Virus record (IMG/VR): IMGVR_UViG_3300042691_017836 | Location: 1 to 30,480 of that record | DNA: 30,480 bases | From: a virus | Direction: 5' to 3' (one strand) | Part shown: piece by piece, positions 3,658-22,969 of the stretch | How the letters are laid out: every line of letters starts with the position of its first letter | Position numbering within the stretch: the first letter of the stretch is position 1 | Notes under the pieces: model-generated | Database searches by the model: none | Told to the model about the DNA's origin: nothing | The model's input: the letters and a program-made list of their open reading frames with translations, nothing else | Position numbers and translations under genes: made by a program

Positions 3658-5700
3658 TTAGATGCTGCCAAAGTTCTTGATAGTTATTGTGCCTACCATA
3701 CCGGCATGTGATTGGCACTGATATCTATAGTTACCTGATATAGAATCGGGTATCTTCCAATACAATGTGCCAGATTGTTTTCCTTGCGCTGACGCCCCTG
3801 TGGTCACTACTCCGCTGGTGGTTACATGCACCAATCCAGTGTTGTAATTGGTACCGGTGTTGTCCTGTATTAGGAACGGATGGCTAGTAGCGCCGGCCAA
3901 ATTGAATGCGATAGTCGTAGCATTGATGGCATATATGGTAGGATCATCTGTGGTACCGTACTGATCAAATCTATAGGCTGATGTGCCGTTGGCAGTGACA
4001 TCCAACATAGTGATCGCAGGAAGATAAAATCTATCCACGGTGAGACTTCCTGCATCGCTAAGACCAGTGAATGCAGTAGCGCCAGCGGCGACTGTGCTGG
4101 TTATAGTTACTGTGTCTGTGCCTGCATCTGTGGTAATAGAAATACCTGTACCGGCTGCTATTGTCAGTGTATCTGTGCTAGAATCTGCTACGATGTTGCT
4201 CTGTCCGGTGACTGCCACAGTGGAAAATGTATTTTGAGCAGCACTGCTATTGGTTATAGTTATCGTATCTGTACCGGCATCTGTGGTAATAGTTATACCA
4301 CTACCAGCTACCAGTGTTAATGTGTCTGTGGCAGAATCAGCTACAACAGAACTTTGTCCAGCTACTGCGATAGTAGCGAAACTGTCGGATGCTGCTCCGC
4401 CGCCGCCTGCTACTGTAGCCCATGTATTATCTCCTCTGAGATAGGTAGTAGCGTCTCTAGTGCCAGACGCACCTAGTCTAAGCACAGGTACTGTCCCGCT
4501 GGTAAGTTCAGTGGCGTTCAATGCAGTAAGATTTGCACCGCTGGCGGCTGGCAGGGTCGCAGGCAATGCTGTGAGATTTGCTCCGCTTAGTGCAGGCAGT
4601 GTAGCTGGAAAACGTGCATCTGGTATAGTTCCAGCAGTCAGTTGTGTAGCATTTAACGCAGTCAGAGAACTGCCGATACCACTGAAGCTGGTAGCTGTCA
4701 ATAATCCAGCGTCTGATATAGTCGCAGAACTGTTTTGAATGATTGTACCTGTGGTACCATCGTAGCGTATGATAGCATTATCCACATACCCGCCGCCTGC
4801 GCTTAATACATCCCCTGTTCCCGCGCCTGACGCTCCTGTGGGGCCTGGTGGTCCTTGTGGTCCGGGAACTCCTACGGCGGTGGTCGATTGCCTTGTCCCG
4901 TCCGCGAATACAATTTCATTGCCTACCACAACATCTGAATCAAATGCCACCGTAGGCGTAAATGTGATGGTGGAACTGTCTGCTGAATCTATTGTGGTTC
5001 CTACAAAAGTAATAGAACCTGTGCTGGTAGTTGAACTTATGGTTACGGTGTCTGTGCCAGCATTGGTAGTAATAGTAATATTAGAGCCGGCGACTAGGGT
5101 TAGTGTGTCAGCAGTAGAATCGGCTATCACAGAGCTCTGTCCTGCAACAACCACAGTGCTAAATGAATTGGGCAGACTAGATTCGCTGGCTACTGGCACC
5201 CAAGCACTGGCATGAGCGTAATACAATTTCCCCGTATCGTGTGCGTGGGCTACCATACCGTGCCAATCTACAGCAGGAACTTCACTGGTTAAATCAGCCA
5301 GTGTGTCCCAGTGGAAACGTATCTTATTTTTTTGGCCAGATACTTCCAACAGTCCGTTGATGTGCAACATACTGGCGCTATCGTGTGTATGCCAATAAAC
5401 TTCAGCAAGATCGTTGACCTGACTGCCTGTACTAGGATAGTAGGCTATTCTACCAGCTACACCTGCCTGTACCCCACCACTAAATCCTGCTGAATTAGCT
5501 TTGGCAAGGAAATCTGAGTTAGTGATATTTGTTAAGTCTGCCTTAGCTAGTGTATAACCTCCCTGATATTGTCCGTCATACAAACGAAGTGTATTTGTAT
5601 CTTTATCGTAGAATATTTCTCCGCGAGATCCAGTTTTTCTATCTAGAAAATCAGCATCTCTAGGTATGATTCTTAAAATATTGAGGGTTTCTCTGGTCAT
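3658..5700 (-). CDS. Tail fibre protein with collagen-like segment and cupredoxin-like C-terminal domain
   Basis: A 680-residue elongated virion protein. The N-terminus (GSRGEIFYDKDTNTLRLYDG) is a motif I associate with T4-like cyanophage structural proteins. Residues about 178-225, 440-485 and 490-537 are three copies of a beta repeat (core VAGQSSVIADSTADTLTLVA). A collagen-like G-x-y run sits near 275-292 (GVPGPQGPPGPTGASGAG). Repeats based on SGANLTALNATQLTAGTIP follow at about 340-410. The last ~100 residues resemble a type I copper (cupredoxin) fold with His607, Cys662, His665 and Met668 in the pattern H...YQCQSHAGM. The gene starts directly at a late-promoter box (5706-5713) and has no visible Shine-Dalgarno. 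It is probably a trimeric fibre; copper binding is inference. Confidence 0.8.
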   Translation of the reverse strand: MTRETLNILRIIPRDADFLDRKTGSRGEIFYDKDTNTLRLYDGQYQGGYTLAKADLTNITNSDFLAKANSAGFSGGVQAGVAGRIAYYPSTGSQVNDLAEVYWHTHDSASMLHINGLLEVSGQKNKIRFHWDTLADLTSEVPAVDWHGMVAHAHDTGKLYYAHASAWVPVASESSLPNSFSTVVVAGQSSVIADSTADTLTLVAGSNITITTNAGTDTVTISSTTSTGSITFVGTTIDSADSSTITFTPTVAFDSDVVVGNEIVFADGTRQSTTAVGVPGPQGPPGPTGASGAGTGDVLSAGGGYVDNAIIRYDGTTGTIIQNSSATISDAGLLTATSFSGIGSSLTALNATQLTAGTIPDARFPATLPALSGANLTALPATLPAASGANLTALNATELTSGTVPVLRLGASGTRDATTYLRGDNTWATVAGGGGAASDSFATIAVAGQSSVVADSATDTLTLVAGSGITITTDAGTDTITITNSSAAQNTFSTVAVTGQSNIVADSSTDTLTIAAGTGISITTDAGTDTVTITSTVAAGATAFTGLSDAGSLTVDRFYLPAITMLDVTANGTSAYRFDQYGTTDDPTIYAINATTIAFNLAGATSHPFLIQDNTGTNYNTGLVHVTTSGVVTTGASAQGKQSGTLYWKIPDSISGNYRYQCQSHAGMVGTITIKNFGSI

Positions 5701-5705
5701 AATAG

Positions 5706-5713
5706 TATTTATC
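5706..5713 (-). promoter_or_regulatory. T4-type late promoter box (GATAAATA), predicted leaderless start
   Basis: The minus strand reads GATAAATA-CTATT-ATG. With T4 late-promoter spacing (box -13 to -6), +1 falls on the A of the ATG at 5700, so the fibre message would have no 5' leader. No purine-rich ribosome-binding site is present between box and ATG. The spacing and flanks copy the site at 11-24. Confidence 0.65.
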
Positions 5714-5794: not shown

Positions 5795-6439
5795 TTATAA
5801 AATACTAATATATCCAGCAGAATCTTCTGGCCCTGGACACACGTTTCCGACAAAATCAACATTGAGTGTTTGGCGTATTCCTGGACCTTGAGGATAAACG
5901 CCATGTAGTAACCAGCTAGGAAAAATTACGATCATTCCCGGTTTTGGAGATATATGAACTACTTTATGTTTTACCGGAGTTAATGGATGATAGGGATCGG
6001 ACTGTAATACAAAATAAATTTGACCCGCTTTATCGTCGTTTTTATTTTGTTCCGGTACTTCGAGATAGGTCACAGAGCATACAGAATTTGGTCCATGATC
6101 GTGTATCGTATGATAACTGCCTTCTTCGCCGATCACAGTCCACGATCTGTTTGCTGAAATTCCTTGCCATTGACCTGGCATAAGACCGTGATGTACCAAT
6201 AACTTTTGTACGGTGTTTTCATACCACAATTTAAGTTCAGCCCATCCTTGTGGTTCTTCATGAACTTGGGATGGCATCCATGACGGGTTTATTAAGTAGT
6301 GCTGTCTAGATAATGGGCCTTTAGCTGTGGTATATGATGACCAATCTTCCGACGTTACATCACTGACTACTTTTTTAATAGTACCTAAATCAGCAATGTG
6401 ATCAGTGATCAGCCAATTTAATCCTTGACTAATTATCAA
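5795..6439 (-). CDS. 2-oxoglutarate/Fe(II)-dependent oxygenase-like protein
   Basis: Probably a double-stranded beta-helix dioxygenase of the small phage/marine '2OG-FeII_Oxy_5' type, which couples 2-oxoglutarate decarboxylation to substrate hydroxylation. Visible features: YHTIHDHGPNSVCSVTYLEV (His113-Asp114-His115 as the first metal-ligand cluster), then GMIVIFPSWLLHGVYPQG with distal His179, then Arg189 in GIRQTLNVDF, placed to bind the 2OG carboxylate. At 214 residues the length suits the family. The start is TTG at 6439, overlapping the halogenase stop as TTGA; no in-frame ATG occurs before about residue 54, which would cut off conserved sequence. This suggests translation coupled to the halogenase. 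The substrate is unknown. Confidence 0.8.
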   Translation of the reverse strand: MIISQGLNWLITDHIADLGTIKKVVSDVTSEDWSSYTTAKGPLSRQHYLINPSWMPSQVHEEPQGWAELKLWYENTVQKLLVHHGLMPGQWQGISANRSWTVIGEEGSYHTIHDHGPNSVCSVTYLEVPEQNKNDDKAGQIYFVLQSDPYHPLTPVKHKVVHISPKPGMIVIFPSWLLHGVYPQGPGIRQTLNVDFVGNVCPGPEDSAGYISIL

Positions 6440-7908
6440 TTTATCTGCTCTGGATTGTCAATTAGCCATTGTAACGCCTGCCTATGATCAACAAATTCTC
6501 CAGAATCGATATCCTCTTTAGGAAGATTATACGGTATTGATTCCATTAGATGTTTAGCCTGCATGTCCACATCTTTCTGTGCTAATTCTTTGCTGATTAA
6601 TCCTAGACCATGCATTACTAATATCCAGTTGGCTTCTTTAAACATGACTTTTCTATTTGAAAATTCTGACTTACTAGGAAATTTGTATTTGTATAATTCT
6701 AATTTGTCTTCTAACCCCGAAGGTTTTGGAAGAGTCTTAGCAGATTTCCAAAAATCTGTGTCAGTTCTCTTAGTGATATAATGTAATGCTACATAATCTA
6801 AAATATTTTCAAGAAGTTCATCACATTCTTGATTGAATTCGTCGATCACCCGAGTAGTTTTAATTTCCGGTATATAAGCAGGTAATAAATGATTTAACTT
6901 GAATGCCTGTTGTATACTGCATCCTATTGAGCTGGCTTCTAGAGGTTCAATAAAACTGCTAGATAAACCAATAGCTACACAGTTTTTTACCCATGATTTT
7001 TCTAAACATCCTGCATCAAATTTTATTTTTTTTGCTACTTGTATTTTATGTCCATAGAGCTTTTCAACTTCGTCAACGGCCTTGTCGAAATCTATAAAAC
7101 TATCATTGAACACGTAACCATTGCCGTATCGTTGTTGAGTTGGAATTCTCCATAACCATCCATTGTTCATTGCCTTTGCTAGTGTCCAACTGGGAATTTT
7201 TTCTGTGGTTTCTGTAGGGAATGCGATAGCACTGTTCATTGGAAGATATTTTTGGTAACTGCGCCATTTGACCCCCATAGTTTTGTGCAAAAGCAAACGA
7301 TGAAATCCGGTACAATCGACATATAAGTCATAACTAAGGTGTTTATCAGTTGTGGTAATTAACTCTTTGATTGCGCCCTGCTCATCCAATTTAACTTCTT
7401 TGATTTCTGCTTTTATGGTGTTTATTTTTCTTTGATCGCAGAGATCGTGTAGGAATTTATTTAATTTGGTTGTGTTAAAATGAAATTGGTTTATAGTAAA
7501 GAACGGCATTCTATGCAGACTAGGTTCTATATATTTGTGAATGAGATCCTTGGGGCCTGCTCCGTTGGCTATCAGATATGAGTATACAAATTTACTGTTG
7601 CTTTGACTCTCCATGTTAAAAGCACTGCTAATTGTGTGAATATAATTTGTACCATCGCCATTCCAGTTATCAAAATTAATACCGTATTTAAAAGTACAAT
7701 CAGTATGTTTGACCAGCTCAGTGGTACTGATATCACAGTGCTGCATGAAGGTAGCCCAATGTTCAGTGCTGCCTTCTCCTACCCCTACGATTCCTATCTG
7801 ATCTGATTCTATCAAATCAATCTGTAGATTAGGATATGTTTTTTTTAAAATCAAAGCGGTAGTTACTCCGGCTGTGCCCCCACCTACTATAGCTATGTTA
7901 TTAATCAA
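6436..7908 (-). CDS. Flavin-dependent halogenase, tryptophan halogenase family
   Basis: Family members use FADH2, O2 and halide to make a hypohalous species that halogenates tryptophan or other aromatic substrates. Signatures seen: FAD-binding VGGGTAG at residues 8-14; VGVGEGST at 41-48; Lys74 in FKYGINF, the position expected for the catalytic lysine (Lys79 in PrnA); the halogenase motif WLWRIP at 251-256; and IEPLEASS with Glu324, matching the PrnA Glu346 region. At 490 residues it is slightly shorter than PrnA (about 540). It starts with TTG at 7908; an in-frame stop lies three codons upstream, so no ATG is available nearby. It overlaps the downstream oxygenase by four bases. Cyanophage relatives are known, including the characterised VirX1. 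The missing partner, a flavin reductase, is not in this window. Confidence 0.88.
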   Translation of the reverse strand: MINNIAIVGGGTAGVTTALILKKTYPNLQIDLIESDQIGIVGVGEGSTEHWATFMQHCDISTTELVKHTDCTFKYGINFDNWNGDGTNYIHTISSAFNMESQSNSKFVYSYLIANGAGPKDLIHKYIEPSLHRMPFFTINQFHFNTTKLNKFLHDLCDQRKINTIKAEIKEVKLDEQGAIKELITTTDKHLSYDLYVDCTGFHRLLLHKTMGVKWRSYQKYLPMNSAIAFPTETTEKIPSWTLAKAMNNGWLWRIPTQQRYGNGYVFNDSFIDFDKAVDEVEKLYGHKIQVAKKIKFDAGCLEKSWVKNCVAIGLSSSFIEPLEASSIGCSIQQAFKLNHLLPAYIPEIKTTRVIDEFNQECDELLENILDYVALHYITKRTDTDFWKSAKTLPKPSGLEDKLELYKYKFPSKSEFSNRKVMFKEANWILVMHGLGLISKELAQKDVDMQAKHLMESIPYNLPKEDIDSGEFVDHRQALQWLIDNPEQIN

Positions 7909-7928
7909 TGTCAGTTACCTTTTAAGTT

Positions 7929-8402
7929 TTAAATTGTGTTTTTGTGTTCAACTGAGACACCCTCTCCGATTTCGTCAGGAGTATATTTGTTGGGACCTTC
8001 GCAGAAATATATTGTAGCATATCCTAGGTATATGCTTCTAACATAATCAAATTCCCAAGTGAGTATATTTTCTAATCCGATATTTTTCCAGGTTAGTTTC
8101 CATGACGGATCAATGTCGTCCATGTGATCGTATTTGAATTCATAGACAATTGTACATTTGGCCTGCCATTTGAATTGATTTATCAATCCTCGCGGGTCAT
8201 TTACTAGTTCTAACGCTGTTGCAAATATCACAGTATCAAAATCTTTTGGTAAATTAGATGCATCAATGAGTGTTGTTGAAGGATCAATGGCGTGGAAAAC
8301 CGACGGTGTTGTTGGTTTTTTTATAGCATCCGTGGGGTTTCCGATGTAGAGGACCTTTCCGTCTTTTCCGATAAACTGAGAAATTATTTCGTCATGATGC
8401 AT
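7929..8402 (-). CDS. Small methyltransferase-like protein (degenerate SAM-binding fold)
   Basis: A 157-residue protein whose layout resembles a truncated class I SAM methyltransferase: KVLYIGNP at residues 16-23 in place of the first beta strand and Gly-rich loop, then FDTVIFATALELVNDPRGLI at 55-74 like the post-I/motif IV strand and helix, and KCTIVYEFKY at 82-91 as the next strand. The canonical GxGxG is absent, so SAM binding is doubtful. It has an ATG start with a good AGGAG site seven bases upstream, and it precedes the halogenase by 20 bases. It is probably co-transcribed with the halogenase and oxygenase. It could instead be a non-catalytic partner of unrelated function. Confidence 0.5.
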   Translation of the reverse strand: MHHDEIISQFIGKDGKVLYIGNPTDAIKKPTTPSVFHAIDPSTTLIDASNLPKDFDTVIFATALELVNDPRGLINQFKWQAKCTIVYEFKYDHMDDIDPSWKLTWKNIGLENILTWEFDYVRSIYLGYATIYFCEGPNKYTPDEIGEGVSVEHKNTI

Positions 8403-8460: not shown

Positions 8461-9456
8461 TTAATACCCGTATAGTTCCCAACCGTAGCTGGCCCAACCG
8501 CTACCACCGCTTGTAACAACTATGCGGTATGCTAGGTATGGTGTAGTATTGGTTGATTGGTAATCCAGTGCTTGGCGGTCAAATGCTGAGCCTGGGCCGC
8601 CACCGTCACCTGTAATAATTGTGGTCCAGTTTCCAGCATTATGGAAGTTTGCACCTTGACCACTATCGTTACTACCTTGAATAGTAAATGCTTGTAAATG
8701 GTTAGTGTGAGCAATTAGACGTAGTTGATTTACAACAACTCCGTTAGGATATTTGTTACCCATGTAAACTGCACAAATTCCGTTAAAAACAGCTGGACTA
8801 GAATGCCAACCGTAGCTTAGACTTCGCGTACGATCATCTCCCAGGCCATCGCTGGCCGCTGATCCAGCACCGCCTGCACCGTTATTTCTTACAGCAGCGT
8901 TTTGCATATTCTGTTGACTATGTGGCATGTCAGCAGTATTAAGAGGAAGTTTAGGAACGTATTCTAAAATTGTATATTGTCCCGGCACACTTTGGCCGCT
9001 GCCACTACCGTCCCACCACTCAGTGTGGAATAGATGCGCATTGTGATTACCGTCTACGTATGCTCGATATCTGTGCCCCATACGAGCTTTTTGTCCAGCG
9101 CCCCAGCTTGGAATATCCCATTCTATGGCGTTGGTATTTTCTATTTCGTGTCCGCCTCTAGTAAAGCGGCCATACTCTATGTCATCTCTGTAAAAAATAT
9201 AGTGCATTATCATGTGGCTGGAACCATAGTCTCTGGTGTGAATGCACCATGTGGATCTTATTCTACTGTCTGATCTTACTGGAGTAAAATCGGCATAGCC
9301 TCCAGGCATCCAATAATAGGTGTTATCACCACGAATCCAGCCGTTTCGGTGTGTGTAACTTACTCGTTGAACTACCCTGTGAGCGAAATCTTGTATGTTT
9401 CTGGATATTGATCCATCTTCACTTTGAATGGTTGAAACGTTTAATTGGGCGGTCAT
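8461..9456 (-). CDS. Receptor-binding-type virion protein with discoidin-like C-terminal domain
   Basis: The last and longest (331 residues) member of the tandem array. Residues 1-170 are the common module: RVVQRVSY, then NTYYWMPGGYADFTPVRSDSRI, IMHYIFYRDD, EWDIPSWGAG and RMGHRYRAYVDGNHNAHL, ending TEWWDG...GQYTILEYV. After a Gly/Ala/Asn-rich linker, residues about 215-331 look like an F5/8 type C (galactose-binding-like) domain: LQAFTIQGSNDSG, NWTTIITGD and the terminal YLAYRIVVTSG...GWASYGWELYGY. Such domains commonly bind glycans. The ATG overlaps the previous stop by four bases (ATGA). Confidence 0.75.
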   Translation of the reverse strand: MTAQLNVSTIQSEDGSISRNIQDFAHRVVQRVSYTHRNGWIRGDNTYYWMPGGYADFTPVRSDSRIRSTWCIHTRDYGSSHMIMHYIFYRDDIEYGRFTRGGHEIENTNAIEWDIPSWGAGQKARMGHRYRAYVDGNHNAHLFHTEWWDGSGSGQSVPGQYTILEYVPKLPLNTADMPHSQQNMQNAAVRNNGAGGAGSAASDGLGDDRTRSLSYGWHSSPAVFNGICAVYMGNKYPNGVVVNQLRLIAHTNHLQAFTIQGSNDSGQGANFHNAGNWTTIITGDGGGPGSAFDRQALDYQSTNTTPYLAYRIVVTSGGSGWASYGWELYGY

Positions 9457-9992
9457 GGTGCTGTCACATACTCCTCTACCATTACGTAACTTGGTACTGA
9501 TCTACTAGTGTCGCTGCCGTCAAGCCAACGACGGCCGTTGAAATGTGTTGAGTGCGTTCCGTCACCGTATTGTCTAACTTGATATCCCATCATACCTGCT
9601 CGCCCCGCACCCCAACTAGGAACTTCCCATCTATGAACATGTGCATGACTCATGTGCGTTCCTGATTTACTGTGACGAGCATATTCTTGACCACCTGCAT
9701 AAAATTTCCAATGAGTGATACTGTGGCTATTTTGACGATGCCCCACAGGAGCATTGCAGGTATATACCAATATACTGTTGCTATACATGGGAGTAATACT
9801 CAAAGAATTTCCTGGAATTGGTCTGTATTCGTTTCCTGGATTCCAAAGTCCTCCACCGCCTTGCTCTGGATTTCCACCACCGTGGAATCGCTTGTAAATT
9901 CTCTGCACCAATCTTCTTTGAAAATAAGTGGTGGCTAAACTGACACTGGCAGTTGAGTTAGTAATGGTATTAACTCTTAAAGTTGCAGTCAT
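9453..9992 (-). CDS. Array paralogue, receptor-binding-type virion protein
   Basis: A 179-residue subfamily-I module. It shows RRLVQRIYKRF, NEYRPIPGNSLSITPMYSNSI, SITHWKFYAGGQEYARHSKSGTHM, RWEVPSWGAGRAGMMGYQVR and WLDGSDTSRSVPSYVMVEEYV. It is the most divergent of the subfamily-I copies, with many His and Met residues in the middle. It sits between a chaperone-like gene (two bases upstream) and the discoidin-tailed copy (four-base overlap). The beta-sandwich and tail-tip role are inferred from the repeated pattern and location. Confidence 0.7.
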   Translation of the reverse strand: MTATLRVNTITNSTASVSLATTYFQRRLVQRIYKRFHGGGNPEQGGGGLWNPGNEYRPIPGNSLSITPMYSNSILVYTCNAPVGHRQNSHSITHWKFYAGGQEYARHSKSGTHMSHAHVHRWEVPSWGAGRAGMMGYQVRQYGDGTHSTHFNGRRWLDGSDTSRSVPSYVMVEEYVTAP

Positions 9993-10368: not shown

Positions 10369-10920
10369 TTAGCGGGCAGTAACTATGCCTTCGGTATTAT
10401 CAGCACCGGCTGGTAATCCTGATTGTGCCCATTCTTCAACTATTAACTGTCCGTAGGCGTTTTGAGTTGATGTAGTGCCGTTCCAATAGTATGTTCTATA
10501 CAGTCTAGTTTCGTGGTTGTCGTTGGTATGAGATCGTACTTGATATCCAATACGTCCAGATGATGTACCCCAACTTGGTACATCCCACTTCAGTGTATTT
10601 CCATCTTCCACATGTGTGCCGCCCATACCATGTCTATAATAAAGAACACCATTAACATAAAATCTCCAATGGCTGATACTGTGGGCGGCGTTTGACCAAG
10701 CTGTTGGCACACGCCAAATAAACACAATCCTGCTGTCTGCACGTTGGGGAGTAAAATCTACAAATCCTCCTGGTGCCCAGTTGCTGGTAGTGTCCGGATT
10801 CCATTCTCCTGAGGTATATTGACTATGATATCTTTGTATGCATCTAGTAGCCAGTTCTCTGATAGGAATTACCAGTGATCCAGTGCTGCTGGCTATATAG
10901 CTGGTGGTTAAAGTACCCAT
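10369..10920 (-). CDS. Array paralogue, receptor-binding-type virion protein
   Basis: A 183-residue subfamily-I member. The frame is open 13 codons further upstream, but ATG 10920 is chosen because it overlaps the previous stop (TAATG) and starts the conserved module (MGTLTTSYIASS). It contains IRELATRCIQRYHSQY, WNPDTTSNWAPGGFVDFTPQ, RADSRIVFIWRVP, HSISHWRFYVNG, GGTHVEDGNTLKWDVPSWGT, GRIGYQVRSHTNDNHETRLY and YWNG...GQLIVEEW. The short tail after VEEW (QSGLPAGADNTEGIVTAR) is not shared with the other copies. Confidence 0.75.
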   Translation of the reverse strand: MGTLTTSYIASSTGSLVIPIRELATRCIQRYHSQYTSGEWNPDTTSNWAPGGFVDFTPQRADSRIVFIWRVPTAWSNAAHSISHWRFYVNGVLYYRHGMGGTHVEDGNTLKWDVPSWGTSSGRIGYQVRSHTNDNHETRLYRTYYWNGTTSTQNAYGQLIVEEWAQSGLPAGADNTEGIVTAR

Positions 10921-11426
10921 TATAACACGATCTCCTCGATGAACAGCTGTCCGCGACAATTCTGATTTGATCCAACACCATCCCAGTATTCTGTGGTATA
11001 CATTCTAAATTCGTTGCTGTCATTACTATGGGCGCGATGTTGAAGACCGATACGACCGGTGCTGGTACCCCAGCTTGGAATTTGAAATTGCCATATGTTG
11101 CCGTTTTCTCCGTGCTGTAGGCTGTCTTCCCAGCGATAATAAATTATGTTGTTGGCGTAAAAATACCAGTTTCCAATAGCATGTGTTGATCCACCGGCTC
11201 TTGCTATTGGTAGCCTCATAGTATAACTAATAACGCTGTCTGCTCGTTTTGGAGTGAAATCGTAAAAAGCGCCTGGCACCCAGTTGTATGAATTATCTGG
11301 ATTCCATACCCCGGCGGTATAATCCTGTCTAATATATTGTATGACTCGTGTGGTTAATTCTACCACAGGAATAGTCACAGATCCAGAGACATCTTGTAAG
11401 GTTGAAATCTGTACATTATTAGGCAT
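10920..11426 (-). CDS. Array paralogue, receptor-binding-type virion protein
   Basis: A 168-residue subfamily-I module, nearly the minimal unit: VVELTTRVIQYIRQDYTAG, WNPDNSYNWVPGAFYDFTPK, RADSVISYTMRLP, HAIGNWYFYANN, WQFQIPSWGTSTGRIGLQHR and EYWDGVGSNQNCRGQLFIEE. It begins with ATG three bases after the upstream stop and ends overlapping the downstream ATG by one base. It is close to the 11430-11939 copy across the WNPD and NCRGQ segments, which points to relatively recent duplication. Confidence 0.75.
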   Translation of the reverse strand: MPNNVQISTLQDVSGSVTIPVVELTTRVIQYIRQDYTAGVWNPDNSYNWVPGAFYDFTPKRADSVISYTMRLPIARAGGSTHAIGNWYFYANNIIYYRWEDSLQHGENGNIWQFQIPSWGTSTGRIGLQHRAHSNDSNEFRMYTTEYWDGVGSNQNCRGQLFIEEIVL

Positions 11427-11429
11427 CTA

Positions 11430-11939
11430 TTACACTCCTGGAAGATATTCTTGAATCACGTATTGGCCGCGACAGTTTTGTACTGAGCCGCCACCATCCC
11501 AGTATTGCGTACAATAAGGTCTAACTTCGTTGTTATCGTTGGCATAGGCCCGCATTTGGTAGCCGATACGTCCTGAAGCTGTGCCCCAGCTGGCCACATC
11601 CCATACATAGGTACGCATATCTTCGTGATGTTCTCCAGATACTCCATGTCGTCCTTGCTCAGCACCGTTGGCATAAAATATCCAGTGACTGATAGCGTGT
11701 GCTGAGCCAGAATTTCTTGCATAAGGAATCATGCAGGTCATGCGTATTCTAGATGTTGCCAGCAATGGAGTGTAGTCGTTGAACATACCAGGAATCCATG
11801 CATAGGTGGTATCAGGATTCCATTGACCACCATCATAGGTGGCTCTTGCTTCTTTGACCACACGATGTCCTAACTCTGTTAAAGGTATAGGAGTTGAATT
11901 AGGATCAAAACTAAGAGAATTTGTGATAAGTGTGCTCAT
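11430..11939 (-). CDS. Array paralogue, receptor-binding-type virion protein
   Basis: A 169-residue subfamily-I copy. The frame opens 23 codons earlier, but ATG 11939 is preferred because it gives the four-base ATGA overlap used throughout the array and an N-terminus like its paralogues (MSTLITNSLSFD). It contains LTELGHRVVKEARATYDGG, WNPDTTYAWIPGMFNDYTP, SAHAISHWIFYANGAEQGRH, YVWDVASWGTASGRIGYQMR and QYWDGGGSVQNCRGQYVIQE. Overlapping frames longer than this one on the same strand inside the gene are not supported. Confidence 0.75.
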   Translation of the reverse strand: MSTLITNSLSFDPNSTPIPLTELGHRVVKEARATYDGGQWNPDTTYAWIPGMFNDYTPLLATSRIRMTCMIPYARNSGSAHAISHWIFYANGAEQGRHGVSGEHHEDMRTYVWDVASWGTASGRIGYQMRAYANDNNEVRPYCTQYWDGGGSVQNCRGQYVIQEYLPGV

Positions 11940-12439
11940 GTTATTGGCAAATATTCCTCTACAAACAGTTGGCTGGTTCCAGTTTGATTTGATCCAACAC
12001 CATCCCAATGGTGCGTACCAAAAAATCTAGGTCGGTTGCTGCCGCCGTGCCGTCTTATTTGATATCCGATACGAGCACGACTAGTACCCCAGCTGTCAAA
12101 TTCCCATACATAGGTGTGTCGATATTCTGGGCTCTGACCTGCTATGCTGTGCCGGCCTTGTTCGGTGCTGCCGTTGCTGTAAAATACACAGCTGGAAATT
12201 GCATGACCGTCGGTGTGTGCGAAATTAAAACACCAAGTGGCTCTAATTCTACTTGATGCCGAAGCTGGCTGATAATCAACCCATAATCCTGGAGCCCATG
12301 CGTAAGAGTCGCTGGGTTCCCAACTACCATTTTGATAGGTTTGACGATATTCTTTAATAGTACGCTGACGTAGTTGAGTCAGTGGTAAAAGATATTCTTG
12401 ATTTTGATGTTGTAGATTATCTACCCTTAGTGTTGTCAT
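11936..12439 (-). CDS. Array paralogue, receptor-binding-type virion protein
   Basis: A 167-residue subfamily-I copy: LTQLRQRTIKEYRQTYQNG, WEPSDSYAWAPGLWVDYQP, SASSRIRATWCFNF, HAISSCVFYSNGSTEQGRH, YVWEFDSWGTSRARIGYQIR and HHWDGVGSNQTGTSQLFVEE. The start overlaps the stop of the chaperone-like gene 12436-12870 (ATGA), and its own stop overlaps the next copy. It marks the switch from subfamily II (upstream) to subfamily I (downstream). Confidence 0.75.
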   Translation of the reverse strand: MTTLRVDNLQHQNQEYLLPLTQLRQRTIKEYRQTYQNGSWEPSDSYAWAPGLWVDYQPASASSRIRATWCFNFAHTDGHAISSCVFYSNGSTEQGRHSIAGQSPEYRHTYVWEFDSWGTSRARIGYQIRRHGGSNRPRFFGTHHWDGVGSNQTGTSQLFVEEYLPIT

Positions 12440-12870
12440 AGACCGAATAATCCTCGTTGGGCTCTCTGATTACCTGCTGGCTTCCCGTCTGGACGCTCAG
12501 GCCATGTTACACCAAAGATTTCTCTCCCACTGAGTGTAGCATTGCCTACTTGATCGGTGATATCAGCTAGAGCCTGCATGTAGTCCCGCCATTCTTGGGG
12601 AACAGGTTCCCCAGTTCTAGCTGCTCGTAATGTAACCCAATCTACTTCACGCATGCGTTCATCGCGCATTTGACGCAGTCTTCGTAATGGAGCTGCCGCT
12701 AGTAATTCTTGAGCTTTTGCAGTAATCTCTTCATCTGTGGGTCTAGCTTCTGGATCGTCATCCCAAACTAGAGTAGCTAGGTCATCAGCTTCGATGCTCC
12801 ATTTATTATTAGGACACAGCACGCCCAGTGCTGTTGCCACAGGTAAAATTTTAGTTTGTTCGTCTGCCAT
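12436..12870 (-). CDS. Tail assembly chaperone-like protein (Phage_tail_APC type)
   Basis: A 144-residue protein. Its second half, LRRLRQMRDERMREVDWVTL followed by RAARTGEPVPQEWRDYMQAL and ADITDQV, matches the pattern of phage tail/fibre assembly chaperone domains (L-R-x-x-R-D-x-x-x-x-x-x-D-W ... W-x-x-Y-x-x-A-L-x-D). The first half holds an acidic stretch (ATLVWDDDPEARPTDEEITAKA). It sits between the two subfamilies of the fibre array and is coupled to the downstream copy by a four-base overlap. An AAGGA site lies upstream of the ATG. It probably helps fold or attach neighbouring fibre proteins rather than being a virion part. Confidence 0.7.
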   Translation of the reverse strand: MADEQTKILPVATALGVLCPNNKWSIEADDLATLVWDDDPEARPTDEEITAKAQELLAAAPLRRLRQMRDERMREVDWVTLRAARTGEPVPQEWRDYMQALADITDQVGNATLSGREIFGVTWPERPDGKPAGNQRAQRGLFGL

Positions 12871-12892: not shown

Positions 12893-13507
12893 TTAAAATG
12901 CTATTTCTTGTGCGATTCCAAAGCTCACGCCAACTTCATGATCGTCTTGACCGTTTAGGTAACTGCCGTAGGTGGTATTTAACATGAACTCATGGTTGCT
13001 GCCGCCACTACTACGTGCAGCAAATCCGTAGGTTACTGGATCTGTGGTTCCCGGTCTGTCTACCCAAGGCAAGCAGATATGACCCGGTGTTGATGAATCG
13101 TTATTGTCATAGCGACTAACACCTGCACCAGTCCATCTACTATTGTATGTTTGATCGTTGACGTTGGCAAATGACGCACCGACTAACATTCCGTCTCTGA
13201 CTATGTTAAACACAATATTGTTTGTGGCTTCATAGGCCACACAAAATTCCACAAAGATATAACTGTCTAGACTTTTTGGAGTGATTGTAACATCCAAGGG
13301 ACGTATGATGGTGCCACCTTCTGAGATACCCGTGGCAAAAACATCGCCTCGGCTTCCACCGTCGTTGTTAGGGATATTGTAACGTAGACGCTGCATGGCA
13401 CGGCTCCATTTGACCTGTATGATCTGTCCTGGTTGATATATGGCGTTGGGATGTGCCACGCGAACAACGCCGCTGGTTCCTGAAATATTGTTTACTTTTA
13501 AGGTCAT
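12893..13507 (-). CDS. Array paralogue, subfamily II virion protein
   Basis: A 204-residue beta-rich protein. The shared subfamily-II pattern is: N-terminal MTLKVNNISGTSG and QPGQIIQVKW; ITPKSLDSYIFVEFCVAYEA; IVRDGMLVGAS; YDNNDSSTPGHICLPWVDRPG; then FAARSSGGSNHEFMLNTTYGS; and the terminal DDHEVGVSFGIAQEI. The stretch DSYIF...AYEA corresponds to ADSRI...W in subfamily I, so both probably share one fold. Its ATG overlaps the preceding stop (ATGA). A 22-base gap with an AAGGA site separates it from the chaperone-like gene. Confidence 0.75.
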   Translation of the reverse strand: MTLKVNNISGTSGVVRVAHPNAIYQPGQIIQVKWSRAMQRLRYNIPNNDGGSRGDVFATGISEGGTIIRPLDVTITPKSLDSYIFVEFCVAYEATNNIVFNIVRDGMLVGASFANVNDQTYNSRWTGAGVSRYDNNDSSTPGHICLPWVDRPGTTDPVTYGFAARSSGGSNHEFMLNTTYGSYLNGQDDHEVGVSFGIAQEIAF

Positions 13508-14058
13508 CCACTGATCTCCCTTGCTATACCATGACTAACCCCAATCTCGTGACCGTCTGTGCCTGTGGAACCAAGAGTTCTATTAAGAGCAAATGTATGG
13601 TTGCTGCCGCCACTGCTTCTTACAGCTAATTGATAGGTTCTCGCAGCAGTTGATCCCGCAAGATCAAACCAATTTATAGTACTAACCTGGGGTGTTGATG
13701 AGTAATCATTATCATATTGCGGAGTAAGTATATTACTCCATCTAGTATTACCTATATCTAAATTGTATCCAATTAAAGTACCATCGCGTTGTACAACAAA
13801 CGATGTGTCATGATGCATTTCATAGGCCACTGTCCATCGCAACCAAATGTAACTGTCCGCACGATATGGTGTGATGAGTAAATTTAGCTGAGTGATCACA
13901 TTGCCATTTCCGCTGTTGGTTGCTGAATAAGTGGTTCGCACATGAGTAGTTACTGTCTGAGTCTGCACAACTTTACCTTGGTGCTGCATCTGATGTGCGG
14001 CATTGAATACGATTTCTGTGCCTGATTGTGGTTGGAGATTGTTAAGAGTCACGCTCAT
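13504..14058 (-). CDS. Array paralogue, subfamily II virion protein
   Basis: A 184-residue subfamily-II copy. ATG 14058 is used rather than the start eight codons earlier because it produces the ATGA overlap and the conserved MSVTLNNLQPQSG start. Conserved pieces: LLITPYRADSYIWLRWTVAYE, VVQRDGTLIGYN, YDNDYSSTPQVSTINWFDLA, AVRSSGGSNHTFALNRTLGS and HEIGVSHGIAREIS. It is very close in pattern to the 12893-13507 copy, mostly differing in the N-terminal third and in the loop around residues 115-130. Confidence 0.75.
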   Translation of the reverse strand: MSVTLNNLQPQSGTEIVFNAAHQMQHQGKVVQTQTVTTHVRTTYSATNSGNGNVITQLNLLITPYRADSYIWLRWTVAYEMHHDTSFVVQRDGTLIGYNLDIGNTRWSNILTPQYDNDYSSTPQVSTINWFDLAGSTAARTYQLAVRSSGGSNHTFALNRTLGSTGTDGHEIGVSHGIAREISG

Positions 14059-14621
14059 ACAGCTATCTCCTCTACCACACACCAGCTTATACCCACTTCG
14101 TGGTCATCAGTTGGACCATTCCAAGAACGATTCATACGAATATCATAGTTTGCACTTGAAGATGATCTTGAACCTATTTGATAAGTGTGCGGACCAACTG
14201 TGCCTGGGGAGTCAATCCAGCAATGATGCTGGTATGTTGGGGTACTATTTTGATCATGTGAATGTTCATAGTCAGCACCACCCATACCGCTGTATCTAAC
14301 ATTACCAACTTCTGAGTTGAATCCAATTACTGTGCCCCCACGGATTGCCTGAAATGTTATATCATGATGGGCTTCATAAAAAATCCACCATTTTAGGATA
14401 ACTTTACTGTTGGCTCTCTTAAGTGTGATATTAACATCCAATCCACTGATTGGTCTACTGGTGTTATCATTATAGCTGTTATAGGTCTGCACACCTTGAA
14501 ATTTTCTCCAAACAGTTTGTATTGTCTGCCCAGCAGCGTACAAGGTAGTGTTGTTTGGCATTGCTATGAGATGGTTGGCCTCATGTGGTCCTTGTAATTC
14601 GTCAGTGACCAGTGTGCTCAT
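14055..14621 (-). CDS. Array paralogue, subfamily II virion protein (first of the array)
   Basis: A 188-residue subfamily-II copy and the first gene of the nine-member array. ATG 14621 overlaps the stop of the upstream fibre gene by one base (TAATG); a start five codons earlier is less likely. It contains AAGQTIQTVWRKFQGVQTY, VNITLKRANSKVILKWWIFYE, AIRGGTVIGFN, SMGGADYEHSHDQNSTPTY-type loop residues rich in His, WIDSPGTVGPHTYQIGSRSS and DDHEVGISWCVVEEIAV. It ends in a four-base overlap with the next copy. Confidence 0.75.
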   Translation of the reverse strand: MSTLVTDELQGPHEANHLIAMPNNTTLYAAGQTIQTVWRKFQGVQTYNSYNDNTSRPISGLDVNITLKRANSKVILKWWIFYEAHHDITFQAIRGGTVIGFNSEVGNVRYSGMGGADYEHSHDQNSTPTYQHHCWIDSPGTVGPHTYQIGSRSSSSANYDIRMNRSWNGPTDDHEVGISWCVVEEIAV

Positions 14622-15298
14622 TAGACTATGCTCCAATCTCCATTAACTGTCACCGTTTGTCCAGCAGCAATAGTTATTGGTCCTGCACTCATAGCGTTGG
14701 TTCCTGCAGGTATTGTATAAGTGTTTATACTGGTTTGATTTTGGTACACCGGAAAGCTTCCAGTGATACTGGGAATTCCAGTTATGTTTAGATTTGCACC
14801 AACAGTGGTGTTTCCTGTTGAAGTCACAACGGTAGATGTCAGTGTTCCAGAACTTGGCTGAAAGGTAAGTTTAGTACTGCTGACTCTAGCTGTGGTAATT
14901 TGTCCTGTAGTGGCTGTTGTAAACGCCACATAGTTGGAAGCAGCGTCTGCGGCTTCGTCAGATATGACTACGGAATTCGTGGCCCAAGACAATGTACCTG
15001 ATCCGTTGGTAGTCAACGCCTGTGTGTTAGATCCGTCAGTTGCGGGCAGTGTCCATAACACATTAGCTGAAACTGTTCCTGGAGCCTGGAACCCAACATA
15101 ATTAGAACTGTCAGCATCACCAAATCTCAAGTCGCCTTGAGCCTGTATCAGTGTATCACTTGCGATTACAAATAAACCGGTTCCGGATGCATCAATGGTG
15201 ATGTTTTGATTGTCAGCAGCAGACAACGTGGTGTTATCAACTTGAACACCGCCAACACCTTGATTACCAACCGATCCTGCTGTATGTTTTCTACCCAT
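14621..15298 (-). CDS. Tail fibre-like virion protein
   Basis: A 225-residue low-complexity beta-rich protein, rich in Thr, Ser, Ala and Gly. Early it shows MGRKHTAGSVGNQGVGGVQV, then DLRFGDADSSNYVGFQAPG and LWTLPATDGSNTQALTTNGS, the 'LPxxDGSxGQxLxTxGxGxLxW' type repeat common in phage fibres. It ends AMSAGPITIAAGQTVTVNGD then WSIV, a C-terminal signature I associate with T4-like cyanophage fibres. There is an AGGAG site seven bases upstream. It precedes the paralogue array with a one-base overlap and may be the shaft on which the array proteins assemble. Confidence 0.75.
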   Translation of the reverse strand: MGRKHTAGSVGNQGVGGVQVDNTTLSAADNQNITIDASGTGLFVIASDTLIQAQGDLRFGDADSSNYVGFQAPGTVSANVLWTLPATDGSNTQALTTNGSGTLSWATNSVVISDEAADAASNYVAFTTATTGQITTARVSSTKLTFQPSSGTLTSTVVTSTGNTTVGANLNITGIPSITGSFPVYQNQTSINTYTIPAGTNAMSAGPITIAAGQTVTVNGDWSIV

Positions 15299-15651: not shown

Positions 15652-15659
15652 TATTTAGT
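15652..15659 (-). promoter_or_regulatory. Late-promoter-like box (ACTAAATA) after the 2426-residue gene
   Basis: The minus strand reads ACTAAATA, six of eight matches to TATAAATA, overlapping the stop codon of the giant gene. The predicted +1 near 15646 gives a leader of about 14 bases carrying GGAG before the ATG at 15632. This is nearly the same leader length as at 22954-22961. Confidence 0.5.
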
Positions 15660-18600
15660 TTAAAAAGTAGTTGAATGCCAACGGAAGGCCAGTTACTCCC
15701 CCTCTGAAATCAAAGGTAGCATTCATTTTAATCGCACCGCCTGTGGTAGTAGTTATGATATTTGAGCTGATAAACACTGATCCTGCTGTCACTGAGTTAA
15801 CGTTCAAGCTAGCACCACCACCACCAATTTGGCTGCCAATATAGGCTTTGATCGCTCTCTGTGTAGGTACGATATTGTCTGAATCCGCAGTAAAGAACGG
15901 GTCTGTAGAGAATTCAGTGATCGTAGCCGAACCGCCACCTAGTGTCACGTTGCCTAAATTAAGTTCTTGCAGGCCCGAAATATTAAAAGCATCAGCATTT
16001 AATGTAGCAATACCAGTTGATTGTTCAATGTTAAACAGGTCGCCAACTCGGAAGTTACCGTCCTGGTCTGTGCTTGTAAAGAACACACGGCCACCGTTGG
16101 AATCAACTGCTTCGTTGGCTGGAATAGGCGGCTGCAACGGAGAGTTAGGATAGTTAGTTTCAATAAAACTACCAGTACCTATGTCCAAGAAGTCATGCCC
16201 AGTTAAACGACACTGGCTATAACGCAGTCTGGTGGTGACCGTTACAGCATCTTCAGGTGCTTCGCCGATGGTTAAATTAGGACTGATCTGTAAGAATGCG
16301 GTGTAGGCTCCATCGTTGACGCCCAAGAACGTGATAACATTCACTAATTTAAATGTGCGATCTGGTAGATGTCCAAACACCACATTAGATCCCGGAGTTG
16401 GTTGTTCAGTGATCTGTCTCACTGCTACAAATGCGCCTGGTTGGAACACGTTGGCGTAACCGTCGCCGATGTCTACTTCACAGCTGCTGGTGACATACTG
16501 CGTGCCTCGGTTAACAAACGATGGATTGGCCAATACTCCCGATCCTCGTCTCACGGTTACTGGTGCTTCAAAGGTGTTGTTAGGATCCGTGAATGTTATA
16601 GTTGGTTCAGTAGTATATCCAGAACCAGGCTCTGTGATGTTAATCTGGAATATCTTGTTAGATGCCACCAACGCACGAGCTCTAGCAGTGGCTCCAGTTC
16701 TAATGTATGTGGCTACTGTGCCTGTGCTAGCGCCAACACCTACAAATTGACCATAACGATTTCTGTTACCAAAAGTGACAGCTGAGAATCCACTGGCTGC
16801 TGTAGATGTAGCTCTTAGAGTCCATGTGATACCGTCTGGAGAAGTTGCTGCTGCTGTGGTTGTACTCACAGCAAGGAATACTCCTTGACCGTATGTGACC
16901 TTGGTCCATTGTGCTGTTGATGGCAGTGTGCTGGCAGTCCACGTAATACCATCTAGACTGTAGGCAGCTACAGTACCACTGGTGTTAGACACAGCTACGA
17001 ATCTGTTATTACCGTAGGCTATACTGTTCCAGTTCGATGAACTTGGCAGTGTGCCTGCAGTCCATGTGCCCGTGACTCCTGATGTGGTAGCATAATTTGT
17101 AACTGCGGTTCCACTCTTGATGGCTACGAATCTGTTTTTACCGTATGCAATAGCTGTGAAACCAGTGGTGGTAAGTGTGCCAGTTTGATCCCAGTTTTCA
17201 CCATCATTGCTGATCCGCACAGTGGTTACATCGCTGGCTATTGCTACAAATTTCTGTGCGCTGAAACCACCAAATGCCACATCTACCCATGTTGCTGATG
17301 TCTGCATACTGGCGGCTGACCAAGTAATGCCGTCATCTGAATATGCACCTGTGGTGTTGGCTGAGGTTCCAGCAACTGCTACGAATTTGCTGACTTTGCC
17401 CACTGTGGATCCGTCATCAAACAAGCCAGCAGTCATAGCTGACCAGTTTGCCGCACTCGGCATTAAGCTGGCTCGAGTATCCCATGCAATACCATCTTCA
17501 GATGTTGCACCCACTGTGCTGCCACCTCTTAGAGCTACATATCTGCCACCTATGCCATATCCTGCATGATCAAAGTTTAAGATAGCTCCAGTTGCAGCAT
17601 TAACCGCGGTGATGGTTATCACTAGGTCGTTGGCTGTGCTCAACCCACCGAGACTGGTTCCCAGTATGGTAATGGTTTGTAATCTCACATATCCTGTACC
17701 AGCGGTCTGTAAGGACGGTGTGTATTTCCATCCGTTGCGTATCACAGTAAATGTAGCACCAACACCGGCACCACTGTAGGTGCCGGTGACTGATGCGTAT
17801 ACCGCTGCGGTTTCTCCGTATTTGACAGCGGTCCATGTGCCTGAGGTTGGCAGTGTAGCTGCTGTGGATGTGTAGCCGGGTGCTGAGAATGTTACTCTTG
17901 GTTCGATGATATAGGTGCTAGAAGCATCTGGTGATACTATTGCTGTGCCTGCTATCAAATGATCAAATCCTGCTGTGCCATCGGATTCTTTGACCAAGCC
18001 TGCTACTTTAGTGCCTGAATTATATGTGTCGATAATACCAAACTGTCCTACACCTGCACCGCCTGTGAGCACGATTTTCATACCTATATAGGCTGTGCTG
18101 GTCTCACTATCTGTGGCAGCAATAGTCACTGAAGTTGATGTGCCGCCCTGGCAGGTGTTGGAATTTGTAATATAACCAAATCCACCAAAATTACCTACAG
18201 CTTCTTCAGCGTCGGTACTGTCTTCAACTAGATCCAACATGCGTACTTCGAACACAGCGTCATCACGGAATTCATCCTGCTGAACTGATCCTCCAGTGCC
18301 GCCACCTGTAATGACATATGTGACTTCAGTGTAATCAATACCAGCATTGGTAAATTCAAATTGTGTCAGTGCCGATCCGTCTGTGACAATGCGATCAATA
18401 ACTGCTTCAAATTGCAGTCTATTATCTACTACGGCTGTGCCAGGTGTTTCACTGGCATCAAATCCTTCTGCCACAGCTCCAAAATCTCCGTATGAACAGT
18501 TACCGTTGGTGCCACGGATCCTACCACCATTTTCTGCTAGATATCCGATGTGCGCATAGTATGAGAACACTGATACCAATTCAGCACGACCGTTGTTGGT

Positions 18601-21600
18601 GATCCAAGCACCAATACCGTCTGATATAACCTGTGTGAAGTCGTTGGAAACGATGGAATCATTACCACCATTGTGCAGCGAGCCGTCGATCTTCTGTCCC
18701 ACGGCGGCTGTACCCAGTGTGGTCACCCCTTGTACGTATGGTGAGCGAGTGTTGATCCAGGTACGGTAATCTTCTGGACCCCAACCTGGATCCAAGGAAC
18801 AGTAGGCTCCGGCCGAAACTCTTGATGTACCGTACTCATTAGGTGCTAAAAGATCGCCTGTGAGTCCCTGCAGTGTCTGATCTCTAACACCTGTACCATC
18901 ACGTAGATAATACATGTCTTCTTCTAGGCTGCCAACCACGCTGTTACCATAGTATCTAGCGGCATATCGAGATTTGTAGTTGCCTGGATATTTCAAATCA
19001 TATTTTAGTGCGTCAATATATGTACCAACGTCTCGCAGGCATGCTTCACTGCTGTAATACAAGCTCACAGTCATAGATCCAGATGCATTAGATGCAATGT
19101 CTAGTGCTGTGTTTGAATCTCTTGTAGTTGAGATTTTAAAGGTTGTTGAGCTTACAACATTCTGTATGTAATATGTTGTACCTGTGCTAATACCGCCAAA
19201 TACAGTTCCTGAGAATCTCACTGCTGCATTACGCTGCATCCAAGCTGTGCTGGTGCAGGTAAACACATCTGTGGCCGCTGTGGCATTCGTTACTGTGGTT
19301 GTATATGTTGAGTCTATGTACGCATCGATCTCTGTAACAACATAATCTCTGTTTCTTTCTAACTGCAGAACTGCGTAATCCACCATCCTGTTACCAGAAG
19401 CACAGCGACTACCTTCGTTGGTGGCGCCATAAATGATATCATCTAACAGAGTCATCAGTGTTTCAATGCGAGCCTGTGCAGTAGCATCACCGCCTACGTT
19501 GGCCTTGGCTTGTGTTTTCACATAACTAAATGCTGCTCGGGTGGCTGCTTTCTGTCCTAGACTATAAACATCGCTGGCACTGGCTCTTAGATAAGCGTAA
19601 GCTGCATTTCTAGTTTGTCCGTTGGCGTTAAACATGAAGTCATAGCCTACTGCATCTAAGATAATTCTAGCATCTCTTTCACACTTATTAGGATCATAGG
19701 TTAATGATGGAAAGTTTGCATCAATATAAACTGTCATGTTTGATACAATAGTCTGAGCCGCCGCACTTAGAGTTGTAAATGCAGTAATTAGTGCTGTGGT
19801 AGAAGTTACAGCGTTGGTGGCAATCGGACGATCCTCGTAGGTCATTACCAAGGTTAAACCAGAACCGTTAGTAAATCCTGTGGCTGCTGCACCCGCATAA
19901 CTTGTTGATACCTTGAAATCAGTAGCTGTAAGTCCTGATGCAATTACGTAATAACGTGTGCCTACAGTGAGTCCGTTCTGTGTTTCAATAGGAACCACTA
20001 GGTCGCCTGCTTGTAGACTGTGACCAGCAGTAACAAAGGTGTCTGTGCCAGTTATCGAAGTCACTGTAACGATAGGAGGAGTAGCTGCGGTGGAATCGCC
20101 TGCTAATAGGTTAGTGATGTTGTCAATGTTAGCGCCGATGAATGCGCTGGCTGCAGACCCACCTGTGAGATTAGTCGCATCGGTCCATTGTGTAGCAGCA
20201 TTACCTGTGGATTTGGTCACTGTGGTGTTAGCAGCGATTTCTTGCATCACAGTTTTTAATCTACCATAAGCAGCCACAGTAGCAGTGACTTCTGATGCGT
20301 CAATTTCCAGCCCTGTGGTGCCGTCAAAATAGGCTAATCCTGCATTCAGTGTCTGCGTAAAACCGCCATAGGTCAAGTCATAGACCATAGCATCGACAAT
20401 AAAACCTGTGTCTCGTTTGCATATGGTTCTAGAATATTTCACTGAAGGGTAGTTTTCAGTGATAAAGGCGATGATTTCAGCTTTGATAAATTCTTTGTTT
20501 TCTTTTATCAGTGTTCTAGCATCACCGTAGCCTGTGAGATAAGCAGTATCGTAACCTGTAGGATCTGTGTTGGTAACCATGTGAGTGGTGCTGATTCGAT
20601 AATCGATCTGATGCTGTATTACTCTTACCAGCTGTGTGATATCTGCCTGTTCATCTGCGCTGGCATACGGAAATGCTGCACTCTGTGTAGCAGTGTTTCC
20701 TGAGCTTTCTGTGACGTTAGAGCCAGTGATAATTTGACTGACTACTGTTTCTAGTCTTGACAGCGCACCCATAGAATAGTAAGAATCTGCAAGATTCGTC
20801 AAGCTACCAGCAGGACCAGCGTTTGTGGATCTTAATTCGTCTCCAATCACGCAGGTCTGTTCTGGAACAATGATAGGCAACGTTTCTCTGTATTGCCCAG
20901 TAGCAATGCTGATAAGATTGTTAGGACTTCTACGAGCAGGCACACTGGCCAATGCTGCTGCGATCTGTGGAGCGGTTACTGCTGCTGCACGGGCAGTGAT
21001 AGCATCAGTGATTACTTCAACTAAACCAGCTGCTGTGGTATATGCTCCTGGTTCTGCTGTGAGGTCAGCATTGAAATACTGCGATACTGTGGCAGTTGAA
21101 TTGTCACCGTTCAAGGTCTGATAGTTCACTGCTGGAGCTGTCTGTGCTAGTACATCCTCGACTACAGTGACCATGTAATTATAGGCCGCTATGGATTCGT
21201 CTGATTCTGCAGCTAGACCAGGATATGCTTCTGTTTCTTCTGCGCTGAGTCCACCTATGAGAGCATTAGCTGCTCCTCTAGTTTTGACGTTGCCGCCATG
21301 TCTAAGATCATAGATCAATGCATCTACAACAAATCCCACATCTCTTTCACATTTGAAATCGTCGTAGACAAATGCCGATGTGAACGGTGCTATGTTGTTA
21401 GTGATCTGATTCTGTATGAATTCTGTGGTTTCTCGTTGTATGAACACACGATTAAGTTCTAATAGATATGTGGCATCGGGATTTCTAGGGCCACGTTCTA
21501 CCTGTTCACAGGCATATCGAATAGTCTTCCATGGCTTATCCCAGGTCTTGCCATGTATAGGTGCAGGAAGATCTGTGCCGTGTGGTGCTACAAAATAATT

Positions 21601-22935: not shown

Positions 22936-22953
22936 TTTCTACTCCGTATCCTA

Positions 22954-22961
22954 TATTTATT
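22954..22961 (-). promoter_or_regulatory. T4-type late promoter box (AATAAATA) of the 2426-residue gene
   Basis: The minus strand reads AATAAATA, one mismatch to TATAAATA, in the 34-base gap between the two giant genes. The predicted +1 near 22948 leaves a leader of 13 bases with CGGAG about seven bases before the ATG at 22935. This is a conventional leader, unlike the sites at 17-24 and 5706-5713. Confidence 0.65.
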
Positions 22962-22969
22962 AATAAAAA

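Follow-up and report, generated by a model that had tools for sequence, protein, structure and literature searches.

Cyanophage halogenases and 2-oxoglutarate (2OG) oxygenases are already known, both having been reported in T4-like cyanophages, the halogenases without an assigned role (PMC2984593, PMC3037559). Also known are the cyanophage halogenase VirX1, investigated as a biocatalyst for unnatural substrates (PMC8407142), the host-recognition hot spot of marine myophages (PMC7029224) and, in jumbo cyanophages, a predicted halogenase/2OGFeDO/carbamoyltransferase cluster with sugar enzymes (Iyer et al., 2021, PMC7824862). Here we describe a three-gene cassette, encoding a methyltransferase-fold protein, a flavin-dependent halogenase and a 2OG-Fe(II) oxygenase, that lies directly behind a tail-fibre array in IMG/VR virus record IMGVR_UViG_3300042691_017836; the window analysed is the entire record of 30,480 bases. 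In the open-licence PMC literature we found no report of a halogenase/oxygenase pair co-inherited with a fibre array, none of ordered multi-halogenase islands or of an island around VirX1, and nothing relevant on bromotryptophan in phages.

Results

The cassette consists of three open reading frames (ORFs), all on the minus strand. The positions, the common direction and the four-base overlap of the last two genes given in a first-pass annotation of this DNA proved exact when checked against the ORFs and the sequence:

7929-8402, minus strand: methyltransferase-fold protein w18, 157 amino acids (aa), first cassette gene, ATG start (ORF and fold match)
6436-7908, minus strand: flavin-dependent halogenase (HAL), PF04820, 490 aa, TTG start (hidden Markov model (HMM) match and motifs)
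5795-6439, minus strand: 2OG-Fe(II) oxygenase w20, PF13759/TIGR02466-like, 214 aa, TTG start (HMM match and residues)
6436-6439, minus strand: 4-bp overlap TTGA, joining the halogenase stop TGA and the oxygenase start TTG (sequence)

The cassette genes are real, their catalytic residues are kept and they are co-inherited with the fibre array. The halogenase and the oxygenase are under purifying selection, with nonsynonymous divergence (dN) of ~0.14-0.22 and near-saturated synonymous sites. A chance ORF or an artefact is ruled out by the HMM E-values, by a dN far below synonymous divergence (dS) and by the retention of the trio in eight lineages.

Linkage was examined by searching 2.9 million viral contigs with the array protein w7 as query, with no reference to the halogenase. 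In every array lineage with enough downstream sequence, w18, HAL and w20 follow the tail-fibre array in this order, and none lacks the trio. Array and trio are present in eight lineages (the window, L005/L008, L004, L016, L018, L019, L021 and L104/L123), the halogenases of which are 55-80% identical; the arrays of L098, L102 and L107 end at the contig end, before the cassette position. Two apparent departures were dismissed: the absence of w18 in L018 is an ORF-calling artefact, the gene being present, and the extra genes after the array in L104 are accounted for by L123 of the same contig, which shows the cassette next. When the oxygenase was used for the search, orthologues of at least 41% identity directly followed a halogenase wherever upstream sequence sufficed, and more distant oxygenases were located elsewhere, without a halogenase.

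Pairwise identities are correlated across the 28 pairs of lineages (r = 0.80 for HAL and w20, 0.84 for HAL and w9, and 0.69-0.84 for HAL with w7, w8, w9 and w10). Relative to the L005/L008 contig, fibre protein w9 is 91% identical, HAL 73-80% and w20 71%, compared with 42% and 48% for the adjacent tail genes w24 and w25. The cassette flanks vary by lineage, with a DNA ligase in L004 and other genes in L016 and L021. Because the block is more conserved than the adjacent tail genes and its flanks differ between lineages, array and cassette appear to move as one unit, and the three genes are best explained as an intact tailoring cassette passed on as a single block together with a tail-fibre array, within the host-recognition cluster of T4-like large myophages. 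The linkage that the first-pass annotation had proposed to check in relatives is therefore kept in the close group and extends to the array itself, and its coupled pathway is borne out at the level of co-inheritance only.

The halogenase matches PF04820 with 359.8 bits against a gathering cut-off of 21 (E=3e-107) and phrog_2928 with E=2.7e-106. All of the motifs previously named for it are seen in the sequence, including the flavin motif VGGGTAG (GxGxxG), Lys74, WLWRIP (WxWxIP) and Glu324 within FIEPLEAS. Among full-length phage halogenase relatives Lys74 is kept in 166 of 166 and Glu324 in 159 of 166, and the corresponding oxygenase residues are kept in seven of seven orthologues; the loss of catalytic residues in homologues, on which the first-pass annotation had let its proposal stand or fall, was thus not seen. 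The nearest solved structures, 6y1w (E=1.8e-65) and BrvH (6frl; E=2.7e-61), both align end-to-end, and Trp-5-halogenases are also among the closest. The substrate-lid region, residues 94-140, does not align to either PyrH or PrnA, and the alignment with the latter stops at PrnA residue 434; these comparisons speak neither for nor against a specificity for free Trp. LodB and QhpG, flavoenzymes that help to modify protein-bound Trp, give weak superfamily-level HMM matches (8.4e-8 and 1.7e-7). No flavin reductase (PF01613) was found in 12 related phage contigs, so that reduced flavin adenine dinucleotide (FADH2) would have to be supplied by the host. A bacterial home for the halogenase clade was sought and rejected, as a scan of 84,980 species genomes yielded five matches, four of them on phage-like contigs. 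The fifth, from Acinetobacter modestus (L154:7971-9436), is a divergent halogenase relative that is split into two ORFs and lies among putative exported proteins.

The oxygenase matches PF13759 with 58.6 bits against a gathering cut-off of 27 (E=8.6e-16) and also matches phrog_81. The metal-binding His113, His115 and His179 and the 2OG-binding Arg189 are present, as had been claimed, and are invariant in the seven orthologues. In place of the canonical H-x-D, the metal motif reads H-x-H, which is also that of the PF13759-like structure 2RG4. An AlphaFold2 model (predicted local distance difference test score, pLDDT, 82) retrieves 3bvc, 2rg4, P4H and PHD2 in Foldseek with template modelling (TM) scores of 0.5-0.6, as expected for a double-stranded beta-helix fold.

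The genes L010:10380-10871 and L159:11908-12519 (phrog_274), annotated 'DNA endonuclease V', adjoin phage halogenases. The L010 gene scores as 2OG-like by profile and the window oxygenase weakly matches phrog_274, so the label may be wrong. In another phage group (L130-L150), a PF13759-like oxygenase is kept two genes past a DnaB-like helicase gene, without a halogenase.

No Pfam or NCBIfam family is matched by w18 of the window, and one of its orthologues gives a below-cut-off match to Methyltransf_23. The AlphaFold2 model (pLDDT 78) finds class I S-adenosylmethionine (SAM) methyltransferases for nearly all of its top 12 Foldseek matches (E 4.7e-5 to 9.3e-4, TMq ~0.54). The SAM-binding glycine motif (motif I) is degenerate; since w18 also lacks a family match of its own, we name it methyltransferase-like only. 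The same term in the first-pass annotation holds for the fold and fails for the glycine motif and for any curated family score.

Pfam and PHROG matches substantiate the earlier statement that the cassette sits among adhesion genes, with the fibre array upstream and a fibre connector downstream:

15655-28582, minus strand: two giant proteins of 2426 and 1870 aa with several CBM_5_12 (carbohydrate-binding) modules, upstream of the array (Pfam/PHROG)
12893-14636, minus strand: array members w9, w8 and w7, tail-fibre C-terminal domains (phrog_6942)
12436-12870, minus strand: w10, tail-fibre assembly chaperone inside the array (PF16778 Phage_tail_APC, E=7.5e-15; phrog_4912 tail fiber assembly)
10369-12008, minus strand: w14, w13 and w12, small array proteins, 4.2-4.7% Trp, conserved W-G and W-D-G segments
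8461-9992, minus strand: w17 and w16, last two array members, directly upstream of the cassette, 2.8-3.3% Trp, kept beside the cassette in related lineages
3658-5700, minus strand: w21, baseplate wedge/tail-fibre connector directly downstream of the cassette (phrog_677, E=4e-46)

The 2426-aa protein matches tail-fibre families. Proteins w7-w9 align with positions 530-707 of phrog_6942 'tail fiber protein' (E 1e-11 to 6e-17), and homologues of w7 are annotated as tail fiber in ACG-2014j, S-WAM2 and P-SSP7. Across w12-w17 the Trp content is 2.8-4.7%. Past the connector, on the opposite strand, is a gp15-like tail-sheath stabiliser (PF16724), which among cultured phages is closest to proteins of jumbo myophages such as PA5oct and Phosso (~31% identity). 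Fibres, a fibre chaperone, a fibre connector and a gp15-like gene thus surround the cassette and the flanks vary between lineages, a setting that fits the hypervariable host-recognition cluster of T4-like marine myophages (PMC7029224). The ORFs scanned around the cassette include no carbamoyltransferase, glycosyltransferase, HAD or nucleotidyltransferase and no gene for acyl/peptidyl assembly.

The connector w21, neighbour of the oxygenase gene, contains a short collagen-like tract, GVPGPQGPPGPTGASGAG. This tract was considered as the oxygenase substrate and set aside, as L004, L016, L018 and L019 keep the oxygenase without the connector beside it. A T4-late-promoter-like sequence, GATAAATACTATT (window 5701-5713, minus strand), directly abuts the ATG of w21; no such match was found directly before the cassette.

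A profile search of the wider family returned at least 568 related phage loci, of which 80 were examined. In the 68 with at least two genes on each side, a 2OG-like gene is directly adjacent to the halogenase in 46 and within five genes in 53, and 30 contain two or more halogenases. Tandem halogenases belong to distinct subfamilies in a fixed order (for example, 1-0-2 in 14 loci), and of the 33 groups only one ever occurs more than once in a locus. Of 60 oxygenase hits on 12 long contigs, 41 have a halogenase no more than 5 kb away, where rotation predicts 8.0 (0/5000 as extreme); the figure is illustrative only, as these contigs were chosen by length once their maps had been seen. VirX1 itself is L013:10445-12034 of cyanophage Syn10 (full-length match to 6qgm), where it adjoins a second halogenase, a DUF6065-like protein and several 2OG-like genes.

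Larger islands, with two to four tandem halogenases and up to about ten 2OG-like genes, are found in L024, L026, L030, L043, L065, L066, L085, L088 and others, adjoining gp15-like/NUDIX-like genes or fibre genes. Proteins of 235-280 aa stand beside phage halogenases at L013:12021-12809, L016:6743-7540, L083:7240-8001, L058:2345-3175 and L088:13967-14710; several are interrelated and distantly DUF6065-like, with one member over the Pfam cut-off, and they accompany many islands. Neither this partner nor the larger islands figure in the first-pass annotation. Halogenase loci beside replication genes include L035, L036, L037, L041, L050, L051, L053, L055, L062 and L092.

Discussion

Flavin-dependent halogenases generate hypohalous acid in an FADH2-dependent reaction and carry out Lys-guided electrophilic halogenation of an aromatic ring (PMC8407142). 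In the proposed mechanism for the cassette, the halogenase would use reduced host flavin to make hypohalous acid, which Lys74, with Glu324, would deliver to an electron-rich aromatic ring. As 2OG-Fe(II) oxygenases catalyze Fe(II)/2OG-dependent hydroxylation, w20 may hydroxylate the same product or a neighbouring site at the expense of O2 and 2OG, and we infer that the two enzymes act on one product. The degenerate methyltransferase-fold protein could serve as an accessory, either as a weak transferase or as a substrate-handling subunit. The candidate substrates are the aromatic-rich fibre-tip proteins encoded just upstream, the modification of which might adjust adhesion or shield the fibre.

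We favour the fibre tips on two grounds: tips and cassette are inherited jointly, and the scanned neighbours of the cassette include no small-molecule genes. That the adjacent fibre proteins are what the cassette tailors is, from the sequences, a tentative reading to which we give a little under an even chance, and the modification of fibre Trp/Tyr residues that the first-pass annotation put forward is possible. Resemblance of the modelled oxygenase to protein prolyl hydroxylases would provide a precedent for a protein substrate, and the weak LodB and QhpG matches offer one for protein-bound Trp at the superfamily level only. We regard as more speculative, and rather unlikely, the broader proposal that phages of this kind add halogens and hydroxyl groups to aromatic residues in their own tail fibres, with the larger islands acting as combinatorial fibre-modification systems and VirX1 as a virion-protein halogenase.

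Several points weigh against a fibre substrate. Small aromatics are the substrates of most PF04820 enzymes studied. VirX1, too, accepts many diverse small aromatics (PMC8407142), and the host-recognition locus is known to be hypervariable and to gather many genes (PMC7029224). The LodB and QhpG matches are far below the family cut-offs, and PolD is among the Foldseek matches of the oxygenase model, such that a match to this fold does not separate protein from small-molecule substrates. A halogenase lineage of 12 loci lies between genes for the gp45 sliding clamp and a gp44-like, clamp-loader-like protein, and neither an oxygenase nor a fibre gene accompanies it. At the homologous fibre-neck locus, ACG-2014j has no halogenase or oxygenase and S-WAM2 has the oxygenase only, the fibre homologues of both being distant (~26-29% identity).

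The substrate range of VirX1 also speaks for the main rival reading, in which a halogenated small molecule or a host-surface glycan is made or decorated by the cassette during infection. Its place beside the fibres would then reflect a shared concern with the cell surface and superinfection. Such a role has been predicted for S-SSM6a and P-SSM2 (PMC7824862). The halogenase of S-SSM6a adjoins rfaE and a cytidylyltransferase, that of S-SCSM2R is on a stretch with glycosyltransferases, and carbamoyltransferases occur near halogenases in L080, L126 and L129; several distinct halogenases per phage would also fit a multi-step product. However, the scanned ORFs of the window include no carbamoyltransferase, glycosyltransferase or other gene of the kinds listed above, and most of the closest lineages have fibres and the trio only, leaving this explanation possible but on the doubtful side.

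The three genes might instead be independent accessory genes piled up in a hypervariable host-recognition cluster, their linkage reflecting a hot spot and hitch-hiking rather than a joint pathway or a fibre substrate. The cassette is indeed accessory, as cultured phages differ in content at the homologous fibre-neck locus; besides ACG-2014j and S-WAM2, Sf-FR1 has tail-fibre genes followed by a halogenase, a 271-aa protein and oxygenases. In addition, an oxygenase within five genes is missing from 15 of the 68 halogenase loci, and the hypervariability of the region is established (PMC7029224). Hitch-hiking is nevertheless difficult to reconcile with the fixed order and co-divergence in eight lineages, with the clustering of oxygenase hits near halogenases (subject to the choice of contigs noted above) and with tandem halogenases in fixed subfamily order, each group once per locus with a single exception, and we consider it unlikely. 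Finally, the oxygenases could mainly shift host 2OG levels and nitrogen signalling, as proposed for cyanophage 2OG oxygenases (PMC3037559), with the halogenase unrelated. This would leave the conserved distinct subfamilies and the strict pairing with the halogenase unexplained, and is very improbable.

If the fibre reading is true, the cassette could point to viruses that modify their own fibres chemically, through a kind of gene island that is widespread, hundreds of phage loci having relatives. Of the co-inherited forms seen, that of the window is the simplest, a single halogenase, oxygenase and accessory protein with one fibre array, and the adjacent fibre-tip proteins are a concrete, testable candidate substrate.

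Among cellular proteins, 6y1w (a putative tryptophan halogenase), which we take to be a cellular rather than a phage enzyme, and BrvH, also cellular, align from end to end with the window halogenase, itself a phage enzyme. LodB and QhpG share its flavoprotein superfamily, but the window halogenase, unlike them, keeps the halogenase Lys and WxWxIP. A review table lists indolic substrates for BrvH and assigns it to no biosynthetic cluster (PMC8407142).

The jumbo-cyanophage cluster (PMC7824862) resembles the window in that a large T4-like phage combines a halogenase with genes of the 2OG oxygenase and methyltransferase types, but the window has no carbamoyltransferase, HAD or sugar genes among the scanned neighbours and places its cassette directly behind a co-inherited fibre array. 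The host-recognition cluster of pelagimyophages and cyanomyophages (PMC7029224) is likewise a hypervariable fibre region by neck/tail genes that includes non-fibre enzymes; that study highlights glycosyltransferases, and the word 'oxygenase' is absent from its main text, whereas the cluster in the window holds a halogenase and an oxygenase. The VirX1 island of Syn10 shares with the window a PF04820-type phage halogenase with 2OG-like genes nearby. VirX1 falls in halogenase subfamily group 12 and the window halogenase in group 6, and the window cassette joins a single halogenase and a single oxygenase to a methyltransferase-fold partner, with no DUF6065-like gene adjacent. With its second halogenase, oxygenase-like genes and DUF6065-like partner, the VirX1 island puts the same question in a cultured phage.

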